From positions 1 to 64,000 of the forward strand of contig JAJEDJ010000032.1 in assembly GCA_022821545.1 (NCBI GenBank): DNA of 64,000 nt. Reading direction: 5' to 3'. This document shows, piece after piece, positions 10,964-32,891 of the stretch. This DNA comes from Caldilineaceae bacterium. Lineage in GTDB: Bacteria; Chloroflexota; Anaerolineae; Caldilineales; Caldilineaceae. Position 1 is the stretch's first letter, and each line of letters starts with the position of its first letter. The position numbers and the translations under genes were made by a program. The notes under the pieces are model-generated. The model was given only the letters and a program-made list of their open reading frames with translations, had not been told where the DNA came from and did not search any database.

Positions 10964-13267
10964 TCAGCCACCGGCAGCCGGCATCCCATCGCTGGCCGCC
11001 ATGCCGCGCCAGACCGTCTCCGGCGTAAACGGCAGCACATCGTACCAGATGCCGAGCGCATCGTGCAGCGCCGCCGCGATGGCCGGCGCCGTCGGCAGAA
11101 AGGGCATCTCCGCCATCCCGCGCGCGCCCAGCGGCCCCTGCGGATCCGGCAGCTCCAGGATCACGGGCACGATCTCCTCGGCGACGTCGGCCACGCCGGG
11201 GATCAGATAGTTGCTCAAATGGGGCGTGATCGTGATTCCCTCCTCCTGCAGGTAGTTCTCCAGCAGTGTCCAGCCGATGGACTGGGCCACCGCTCCCTCT
11301 ATCTGCCCCTCCACATGCTGCGGATGAACCGCCTTGCCCACGTCGTTGACGCTGATCAGCCGCTTGACCGTCACGTGCCCGGTCTCCCGGTCAACCGCAA
11401 CGTCGGCCACCTGCGCGCAATATCCGTAGGTGATGTTGGGATCGCAGGCGCCCGTCTCGCGATCGAAAGGGGTCGTGGCCCGCGGATGATAGACAAACTC
11501 CGCCCGCGCCGGGCGTTCCTCATCCCGCCACAGCGCCATCGCCCGGTCGGCCGCGCCCTGAATCGCGTTGCCGGCCATAAAGGTCATGCGACTGGCGGAG
11601 CTGCTGCCGCTCGAGCCGGTCACGTCGGTGTCCTCCGCCTCCAACTCCACCTGCTCCGGCGAAAGCCCCAACATCTCCGCGGTCATGAGGATGAAAGCGG
11701 TGTGCGCGCCCTGCCCCACCTCGGCGCCGACGCAGCCGACGCGCGCCCGTTCGACCCTCTCCTCGCCGTGCAGCTCCACCCAGGCCGTGCAGTGCTCCGG
11801 GAAGCCGAAACTGTAGCCCACGTTCTTATAGGAGACGGCGATCCCCCGGCCGTGCGCGATGCGGCCGCGCGAAGAGTCAAGGCTCGTGGTCAGCAGCCCG
11901 TTGCCACCGTTCGCCGGCGCGCCGCCGGCCGTTGCAGCCGCAACCGACCACTGGCCGTCGCGCTCTTGCCAGCCGCCCTGCCGCGCCGCCTCGGCCAGCA
12001 CCTCTTCGGTCGTACAGCCGGCGGGGACCGGGCTGCCGGTGACCAGGGTCGAGCCGTCGCGCAGGATGTTGCGCATCCGGAATTCAACCGGGTCCATGTT
12101 CAGGGCATGCGCCAGCTTGGTCATCTGCATCTCGGCGGCGAAGTGCGCCTGCGGCCCGCCGAAACCGCGAAATGCGCCGCCCGGACAGTTGTTGGTATAA
12201 ACGGTACGCGCATCCACGTGCGCGTTCGGAATCTCATAAGGGCCCAGGCACATCAGCGTGGCGTTCGCCAGGACCTTGGTACTGGTGTAGGCGTAAGCGC
12301 CCGAGTCGCTGGTCAAATCCATCTGCGCCGCCGCGATCCTGCCCTCTCTGGTCGCCCCCCACTTGGCGCGAATGACGAAGGCATGCCGCTTGTGGTGCCC
12401 GATGATCGACTCCTCCCGGCTCCACACGGTCTTCACGGGGCGCCCCGTCTTCCACGCGGCCAGCGCCAGCGGGATCTGGACCGACATATCCTCCCGCCCG
12501 CCAAAGGCCCCGCCGACAGCGGGGTAGCGCACCACGATCCGGTCCGCCGGCAGGTCGAGAGCATGGGAGATCTGTTCCTGGTCCTCGTGCATCCACTGCC
12601 CGGCGACGATGACCTCGATACGGCCGTCGGCGCGCACGCGGGCGAGGCCGGCCTCCGGCTGCAGATAGGCGTGTTCCTGCGGGTGCGTGCTGTAGACGCC
12701 CTCTACGCACACGGCGGCCTGAGCAAAGCCGGCATCGATATCCCCGCAGCGCAGGCGGTGCCTGACGAGCAGATTCGACTGTCTGTCCCGCCCTTCTTCG
12801 TAGGGAAAGTTGCTGAAAGGGTGGGGATGCAGCGGCTGTGCGCCGGCTGCCAGCGCCTGCTCCGTGCTGGTGATGACCGGCAGCGCTTCATACTCGATGT
12901 CGAGCAGCCGCGCCGCCGCCTCAGCCTGCGCCGCGGTCTCGGCCACTATCAGCGCCACCTTGTCCCCTTCCCAGCGTACGACCTCTGCCTGGGGCGTACT
13001 CCCCAGCCCGCACAGCACTGGCTGATCCGGCATCACCAGACCGTACTCGTTCACCGGCACGTCCGCCGCCGTCAGTACGGCGATGACGCCCTCCGCCGCC
13101 GCGGCCCGCTCCGTATCCATGCGGACAATACGCGCGTGGGGCACGCCGGCAAAGACGATCTTCAACCACGCCTGGCCGGGCAGGTCGATGTCCGCCGGGT
13201 AGGCAGCCTGTCCGGTCACCTTCTCGGCGGCGTCAAAACGGGGTATGCTGCTACCGACTGCGCGCAT
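10964..13267 (-). CDS. Molybdopterin-binding large subunit of a xanthine dehydrogenase-family hydroxylase
   Basis: 767 residues from ATG 13267, with GAGGT upstream. Recognised segments in order: the N-terminal a/b-hammerhead ([19 protein letters not shown]), [22 protein letters not shown] at the cofactor pocket, and near the end [18 protein letters not shown] with the catalytic Glu. The AFRGFGG form is of xanthine dehydrogenase type, not the Cys-containing loop of form I CO dehydrogenase. It should hydroxylate a heterocycle or aldehyde with water as oxygen source. Its FAD and 2Fe-2S partner is the fused protein at 14611-16041, with a GNAT and an acyltransferase gene between them. The substrate is not deducible. 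Confidence 0.9.
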
Positions 13268-29923: not shown

Positions 29924-30067
29924 TAAGCTCCACCGTTAAGCCTCTCTGTAACGGTTCCTGGCGGCCAGGTTGGCGCGCTGGCGTTGATTTGTCAGCCGCG
30001 TACGAAAGACCTGCCTGCGTGGGAAATCTGAAAGCGTCAAATCAGCGTCAAATCGAGGAGAGAAAAC

Positions 30068-30541
30068 ATGGGAGATGTCGCGTATCGCTCGAAAGTGCGC
30101 ATTGAGCGTGTGAAAGGGCCGCTGCGCAGGGCGTTTCTGCCGGCCGAGGAGGAGCATACGAAGTTCGGCGTCCATTCGGAAGTGGCCGAACATTACGGTG
30201 TGGACACCGCCATCCACGAGCCGCATGCCACCACGCTTGACTATGTCAATGCAGCCACAGGCGGCTGACTGACCGGCACCTTCGGGGGCGCGCTGGAGGC
30301 GCGTAAGATACCTGCGGGCGACGGCTTTCTGACGGCCGACGTAGAAGCTGAGATCGAAAAAGACGGCAACGTACTGATTATCAAACGGATCCACGCCACA
30401 TACACATTGAAAGTGGCTCCTGATCAGCGGGAAACGGCGGAACGGGTACACGGGTTCCATGCGCAGTTCTGCCCCGTGGCGCGCAGTCTCGAAGGCAGTA
30501 TCGACATCTCCACCGAACTGCGTATGGTCGATCTCGATTGA
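30068..30541 (+). CDS. OsmC-family protein with in-frame UGA at the conserved Cys: candidate selenoprotein
   Basis: ATG 30068 follows GAGGAG. The frame runs 66 codons to ATTLDYVNAATGG, meets TGA at 30266-30268, and continues in the same frame with LTGTFGGALEARKIPAGDGF to a TGA stop at 30539-30541, 157 residues in all. Both halves belong to one OsmC domain: after the UGA come IKRIHATYTLKV and the second Cys in FHAQFCPVARSLEG. In Cys homologues of this subfamily the motif reads T-G-G-C-L-T-G-T-F, so the UGA falls on the redox Cys. A hairpin suited to a bacterial SECIS follows. OsmC-like selenoproteins are known from metagenomes. SelA/B/D and tRNA-Sec are not in the window. A nonsense mutation is the alternative. 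Confidence 0.75.
30289..30303 (+). promoter_or_regulatory. Candidate bacterial SECIS hairpin
   Basis: CGCGC (30289-30293), loop TGGAG, GCGCG (30299-30303): a perfect 5-base stem, extendable by one G-U pair. The loop begins 25 bases after the in-frame UGA and has a G in its second position. This agrees with the known bacterial SECIS pattern (apical loop about 16-37 bases after UGA, G among the first two loop bases). The region is GC-rich, so a hairpin by chance is possible. Confidence 0.5.
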
Positions 30542-30610: not shown

Positions 30611-30639
30611 TTGACAGCGCGGCAGCCGCGTGCTAGACT
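30611..30639 (+). promoter_or_regulatory. Consensus sigma-70 promoter for a small RNA unit
   Basis: Perfect TTGACA (30611-30616), a 17-base spacer and TAGACT (30634-30639). Transcription should start near 30646. The best -35/-10 pair seen in the window apart from 7846-7874. Confidence 0.75.
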
Positions 30640-30645
30640 GTCATT

Positions 30646-30820
30646 CAAAGTGAGTTTTCCACTGAAGAAGGAAGCATGAGCCCAAACAGCACCTGCTGTA
30701 CCCAATTGAGGAGGCGTCCCCGGCAATAACCAGACGGCCGTCTGGGCATTTGCGCGTGGGCCCGGTTCCTCAGCGGGAATCAGCCGATTGCAAAGCTCCC
30801 CGGACGGGGGGCTTTTTTTG
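30646..30820 (+). ncRNA. Unidentified structured RNA of about 175 nt, or argC leader with attenuator
   Basis: Bounded by a consensus promoter and a strong terminator (AGCTCCCC at 30794-30801, loop GGAC, GGGGGGCT at 30806-30813, then T7), with no convincing reading frame. Predicted pairings: ACAGC/GCTGT around 30687-30700; UGAGGA (from about 30707) with UCCUCA (to about 30772); inside it GCAA/UUGC and the perfect hairpin CCAGAC-GGCC-GUCUGG (30730-30745). The size and single long interrupted hairpin would suit 6S RNA, but I cannot confirm the family. It lies 130 bases before argC, so an attenuated leader is the alternative. No T-box or known riboswitch motif was seen. Confidence 0.55.
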
Positions 30821-30871
30821 TACCGCCTCTTAAGGGCACAGCGGCAGCGCATTCAACAAACGCAGGCAATT

Positions 30872-32108: not shown

Positions 32109-32891
32109 GTGGATTCAGGCCAGGCGTTGAGCAAGCAAGAAACAGTCACTTTCCTGGAGGGCAAGATCTCGGTGGCCGCGGCCCTGCGTTCCCCCTACCG
32201 TACCGTTCACCGCGTGCTGCTGCGGGCAGACCGGGAGGACCGGACAGTGCGCTGGCTGCAACACCGGGCGCGGGAGGCCGATGTGCCGGTGGTCCAGGTG
32301 GGCGCGGCGGAAATTGACGCCGTTACCCAGGGCAACTCCCACGGCGGCATTGCGGCCGAGGCAGGGCAACGACAGTTTGTCCGCCTGGAAGAGTTGCTGC
32401 CGCGCGGGAATGGACCGGCATTTGTCGTGATGCTGGACGGCATCGAAGATCCCTTCAACTTCGGTCAGTCGCTGCGGGCGCTGTACGCGATGGGCGCGCA
32501 CGGTGTTGCGCTGCGGCCGCGCAATTGGATGAGCGCAGCGGCAACTGTGGCGCGGGCCTCGGCCGGCGCGTCGGAGCTGATGCCAATGGCGGTTGCCGAG
32601 ACGGTTGCGGAGGCGGCGGCTTTCTACCGCGAGCGAGGGTTGATGGTGGCCTGCGCCCAGAAGGAGCACGCGCTGCCGATAGATGAGGCCGATCTGACCG
32701 CCCCCCTCTTTCTGCTGGTAGGCGGGGAGAAGCGGGGCGTTACCCGGTCGTTTGCGAAGCAGGCCGACGTAGGCTTGCAGGTTCCGTACGACCGGGTCAG
32801 TTACGAGCCGTCTCTGGGCACGACGGCGGCGGCGGCGGCGCTGGCATACGAGGTAATGCGACAGAGAAAGCATGCGCGGCGCGCTGTGTGA
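32109..32891 (+). CDS. TrmH/SpoU-family RNA 2'-O-methyltransferase
   Basis: 260 residues (GTG 32109; TTG 32127 is possible). An N-terminal substrate-binding region of about 95 residues precedes the SPOUT domain with its three motifs: LDGIEDPFNFGQSLRALYAM (motif 1, with the conserved N-x-G-x-x-x-R reading here as N-F-G-Q-S-L-R), FLLVGGEKRGVTRSF (motif 2) and VPYDRVSYEPSLGTTAAAAA (motif 3, more divergent than usual). It should methylate a ribose in rRNA or tRNA. It lies inside the arginine operon with no evident link to the pathway. Confidence 0.87.
   Translation: MDSGQALSKQETVTFLEGKISVAAALRSPYRTVHRVLLRADREDRTVRWLQHRAREADVPVVQVGAAEIDAVTQGNSHGGIAAEAGQRQFVRLEELLPRGNGPAFVVMLDGIEDPFNFGQSLRALYAMGAHGVALRPRNWMSAAATVARASAGASELMPMAVAETVAEAAAFYRERGLMVACAQKEHALPIDEADLTAPLFLLVGGEKRGVTRSFAKQADVGLQVPYDRVSYEPSLGTTAAAAALAYEVMRQRKHARRAV

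Follow-up and report, generated by a model that had tools for sequence, protein, structure and literature searches.

Does the UGA codon that interrupts an OsmC-family gene of a Caldilineaceae genome end translation, or is it read as selenocysteine (Sec)? The gene lies in a stretch of 64,000 nucleotides, referred to as the window below. The original prediction had named it a candidate selenoprotein and had proposed three computational tests, namely a search of the same genome for the Sec machinery, an alignment of homologues at the UGA column, and a search for a bacterial SECIS element (bSECIS) downstream; the interpretation is supported by all three. We consider it very probable that the gene encodes a working selenoprotein of the OsmC/Ohr superfamily; the UGA at position 30266 would be decoded as Sec via SelB and a hairpin, and Sec67 would be the peroxidatic residue. 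We infer Sec insertion from the reading frame, the protein family, the machinery, the conservation of the UGA, a Sec/Cys pair, and a hairpin under selection.

Table 1. Features of the OsmC-family gene and of the region preceding argC (positions in the window)
Feature	Position	Strand	Remarks
Shine-Dalgarno-like GAGGAGAG	30055-30062	+	basis: sequence
OsmC-family selenoprotein gene (predicted)	30068-30541	+	157 aa, Sec at codon 67; ATG 30068, terminal TGA 30539-30541
Sec UGA codon (predicted), codon 67	30266-30268	+	position of peroxidatic Cys of OsmC/Ohr
bSECIS-type hairpin GCGCGC-UGGAG-GCGCGU	30288-30304	+	6 bp and possible closing U-G pair in loop
TGC codon for second Cys, C135 (FCPVARS)	30470-30472	+	predicted resolving residue
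Candidate arginine attenuator	30611-30822	+	between OsmC-family gene and argC (30950)
Promoter-like TTGACA-17-TAGACT	30611-30639	+	sequence
Leader-peptide ORF, 17 aa, arginine-rich MSPNSTCCTQLRRRPRQ	30676-30729	+	conserved
Terminator-like hairpin with T-run (intrinsic terminator)	30792-30815	+	sequence

The interrupted reading frame

The TGA at 30266-30268 is the single in-frame interruption of the gene, and homologous coding sequence is found on both sides of it. If this codon is translated through, the Pfam OsmC match (PF02566) spans it, covering residues 56-150 with 46.2 bits at a cut-off of 27.5. Frame and domain match thus bear out the claim of a frame broken only by TGA, with OsmC sequence before and after. 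The second conserved Cys, which was said to be kept, is present as well: codon 135 is TGC, and columns 67 and 135, which hold the two redox Cys/Sec residues, are invariant in alignment A1. None of the NCBIfam subfamilies reached its cut-off for the translated-through protein (TIGR03562 scored 20 bits, 85.8 being required). The closest named relatives are Caldilineaceae MAGs, with identities of up to 98%; in plasmid and viral sequence collections, relatives of the gene were not found. A comparison of the ORFs at 13 loci placed argC 3' of the gene within the genus, and inspection of these listings by eye made no shared gene neighbours evident in other families.

Selenocysteine machinery of the genome

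The assembly (4.87 Mb in 58 contigs, 98.9% complete) contains all four components that were to be looked for: selA (547 bits for the joined pieces), selB (325 bits), selD (331 bits, G000:C30:80938-81933, L021), and a tRNA-Sec (67.6 bits) with the anticodon TCA, that is, UCA in the RNA. A set as complete as this speaks for Sec insertion being active in the organism. The selD gene has an in-frame TGA of its own within the motif ACAGUASKLPP, at what we take to be the catalytic position; the predicted selenoprotein genes of the genome therefore number two or more.

The tRNA also bears on the possibility that a variant code or a suppressor tRNA has UGA read as Trp or Cys instead of Sec. This proposal could draw on one homologue with TGG at the codon, although that copy (L095, see below) looks decayed. 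It has to contend with a tRNA-Sec whose anticodon is UCA, with UGA codons which apparently end genes in the normal way, for example at 10964 and 32889, and with the frozen hairpin described below, which is needed for Sec but not for a reassigned codon. We therefore judge it very unlikely. Both stop codons had appeared as read-through candidates in a scan of the window. At the top candidate, 10964 on the minus strand, a gene for a molybdopterin-binding dehydrogenase subunit ends normally and another gene follows in frame; the one at 32889 ends an rRNA methyltransferase-like gene, which is followed by argB. Neither yields a selenoprotein.

Among the 37 genomes of the class with a close homologue, all but G251 (36 genomes) contain selB at E ≤ 1e-50; in G251, selA was detected at 1e-163. 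As most genomes of the class have selB (334 of 396), its co-occurrence with the gene is weak evidence, a consistency check and not a proof. The OsmC-family gene and selB are also found together in three single-contig genomes (G226, G291, G379); binning error is therefore no explanation.

UGA and Cys among the homologues

In the 396 genomes of the class, each of the 37 close homologues spanning this codon (58-99% identical; the G066 fragment, which does not extend to it, was excluded) has TGA there, and none has Cys. A second, distant copy in G116 likewise has one TGA. Among main-group representatives with less than 90% nucleotide identity, the known non-TGA copies L095 and L096 having been set aside beforehand, TGA occupies the same codon in 42 of 42 cases, which is not chance. 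TGA also occurs in other classes of the phylum, for which a sample of 400 genomes was used, and nearly all relatives in the phylum share both this codon and the same RNA signal. TGC is found at the column in L096 and in the fragment L106, which come from two species of one genus in another family. Judged by their sequences, these and the TGA forms make up a Sec/Cys pair in which Cys homologues are few. Hence, UGA and Cys do alternate at this column, as had been asked, with Cys being rare and confined to that genus.

These alignments also decide about a pseudogene or a sequencing error, in which the TGA would be a nonsense mutation of a TGC, TGT or TGG codon. Damaged copies do exist. In L095 (G661:C49:15837-16208) the Sec codon is TGG, the profile match is partial and starts only at position 31, and one of the six hairpin pairs is broken; because of the unmatched N-terminal part and the broken pair we regard it as a decayed copy, in a genome where selA is still present. 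Moreover, L041 (G051) and the G157 copy contain an additional TAA or TAG. Against this, the same TGA is present in dozens of species and in independent assemblies, with the protein conserved on both sides, and its conservation across families of the phylum refutes decay as a general account. Neither of two findings that had been named in advance as speaking for damage was made: sister species of the genus have neither further stops nor frameshifts, and independently assembled genomes show TGA, not TGC or TGT, at the codon. We regard the probability of this explanation as practically nil.

Two groups of sequences lie outside the main set. L098-L101 (about 100 bits; further matches in the phylum at 87-102 bits) represent a second, distant OsmC subfamily with the motif GGUMYGTLARAL, in which UGA occupies the same column; three of the four copies examined have a bSECIS-like hairpin of different sequence. 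L069 (JAHWYA010000186.1), from a MAG labelled Anaeromyxobacter, is a TGA form with 55% identity and identical SECIS stem codons, which is due either to horizontal transfer or to mis-binning.

A hairpin frozen at synonymous sites

The original prediction had placed a 5-base hairpin with a G in its loop at an allowed distance from the UGA. The hairpin, the G, and the spacing were found as described; the size was not, the stem having six base pairs instead of five. Counted with these 6 bp, the loop is UGGAG, and 25 nt separate the UGA from its first base. According to the published bSECIS model, a loop of 3-9 nt with a G in its first two positions sits on a stem of 4-16 bp at 16-37 nt from the UGA, with an MFE of at most -7.5 (PMC13188914). 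The hairpin of the window lies within all of these limits if counted with a loop of 3 nt (GGA), 7 bp, a distance of 26 nt, and -9.8 kcal/mol. In our scan, for which a stem of at least 5 bp was required, the model was satisfied by 41 of 41 representatives; after synonymous recoding, however, an average of 11.6 out of 41 sequences still passed at some place. Because of this pass rate, the model has limited specificity by itself, and what counts is the frozen position.

The consensus is GCGCGC-UGGAR-GCGCGY, encoded by the codons GGC GCG CTG GAR GCG CGY. All six stem pairs form in each of the 41 representatives (below 90% nucleotide identity). In a control of 500 synonymous recodings, all six were retained in 2.4 of the 41 on average and never in more than 7. 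Among 72 columns with conserved residues, synonymous identity is 95-100% at codons 74, 75, 76, and 78, compared with about 35% expected, and the best column outside codons 74-79 reaches 68%. Codon 77 (GAA or GAG), which lies in the loop, is free, and either choice permits a U-A or U-G closing pair. Where the stem varies, on either side, the exchanges (G-C/G-U, C-G/U-G) preserve pairing. The representatives have ancestors in common, so that these counts cannot be treated as independent; third positions on both flanks of the hairpin, however, vary freely and provide a built-in control. The hairpin is frozen at synonymous sites from the Caldilineaceae through other classes of the phylum to the MAG labelled Anaeromyxobacter. 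The Cys form L096 retains five of the six pairs and has an altered loop; a different hairpin can nevertheless be drawn for it. Thus, the search after the UGA yielded an element within the published bSECIS constraints whose synonymous sites are under strong selection.

Predicted fold and active site

The AlphaFold2 model has a pLDDT of 79.8, with low confidence at residues 29-54. The central helix, residues 56-78, contains Sec67, whereas Cys135 falls between the helices 118-134 and 136-141. The best structural matches in the PDB are OsmC/Ohr proteins (1qwi, 1nye, 1n2f, 6eb4; Foldseek E 1e-5 to 1e-6, 10-22% identity within the structurally matched part), so that the model predicts an OsmC fold. 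By sequence, no PDB entry matched at E ≤ 0.001, the best solved OsmC protein having E 0.047. In a weak profile alignment (E 0.75), Sec67 is opposite the Cys of 2opl in the motif GCLT. From what is known of Ohr/OsmC proteins, we take positions 67 and 135 to be the peroxidatic and the resolving residue. The claim that the UGA falls on the reactive Cys agrees with the Pfam match, the weak 2opl alignment, and this family knowledge, on which the assignment of Sec67 to the peroxidatic Cys position rests; at this column L096 and L106 have TGC.

The model is also relevant to the idea of a purposeful stop, whereby the product would be a 66-residue peptide or the UGA would serve regulated termination, the rest being made separately, for example from the TTG at 30407. 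UGA is a normal stop codon. Moreover, its decoding as Sec depends on selenium supply, and some truncated product is therefore to be expected. A purposeful stop, however, would leave the conserved hairpin without evident purpose, the predicted helix 56-78 of the fold passes through the codon, and the reading frame of the Cys form L096 is continuous. We hold such a stop to be highly improbable.

If the UGA is decoded as Sec, SelB bound to the hairpin at 30288-30304 would bring Sec-tRNA(UCA) to the UGA at 30266, and the product would be a 157-residue protein of OsmC fold with Sec67 and Cys135. We infer a peroxidase role, based as it is on the fold and these residues; chemistry and substrate are proposed by analogy with OsmC/Ohr. 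Sec67 would attack hydroperoxides as the peroxidatic residue, and Cys135 would then resolve the oxidised selenium before a thiol reductant restores the enzyme.

Relation to known OsmC proteins

The Sargasso Sea survey of 2005 reported three sequences of OsmC-like selenoproteins (COG1765/PF02566) and the GOS survey of 2008 five, with the motif UxxT (PMC1088965, PMC2398784); a 2026 review lists them as well, and a bacterial SECIS lies downstream (PMC1088965, PMC2398784, PMC13188914). The gene described here likewise belongs to the OsmC family, has a predicted Sec where the redox Cys would be, and is provided with a downstream bacterial SECIS. Its motif reads U-L-T-G-T (UxT or UxxxT), as against the UxxT of those papers. 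With the Cys-containing Ohr/OsmC thiol peroxidases it shares the predicted fold and a pair of redox residues that lie apart, one of which, the first, is in the central helix; here, in contrast, Sec replaces the first Cys, and the subfamily is a distinct one. The genome's own Cys-containing OsmC paralogue (G000:C24:150703, L070) matches PF02566 too, with 54 bits; it belongs to a different subfamily (AHAGCYSMFLSALL) and is without an in-frame stop. Tentatively, and with rather more doubt than confidence, one may think of a distinct OsmC selenoprotein subfamily in which Sec is ancestral and dominant in Chloroflexota, the Cys forms being rare secondary replacements whose SECIS has begun to decay.

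A literature search of partial coverage found no paper describing an OsmC-like selenoprotein gene in Chloroflexota, and a search on Sec in sponge-associated Caldilineaceae found nothing relevant. The statement that no case had been described in this lineage is thus uncontradicted, although OsmC-like selenoproteins as such, rare as they are, have long been known. Annotations of MAGs from this group probably miss the gene or give it as a truncated OsmC. The gene set shows a bacterial SECIS within a coding region with unusual clarity, since Cys forms and a decayed copy can be set beside it, and it points to a peroxide defence that depends on selenium in these uncultured bacteria.

A candidate arginine attenuator upstream of argC

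The region between the OsmC-family gene and argC drew attention as a candidate attenuator (Table 1). Rfam gave no match over threshold for 30611-30822, and no paper on an arginine leader upstream of argC was found in the literature covered. Of 10 aligned loci, 8 show conservation of the DNA of this region, and an LRRRxRQ peptide, in this or a variant form, is present together with a T-run in at least nine distinct Caldilineaceae sequences. The arrangement resembles an attenuator through which stalled ribosomes would control the arginine operon.
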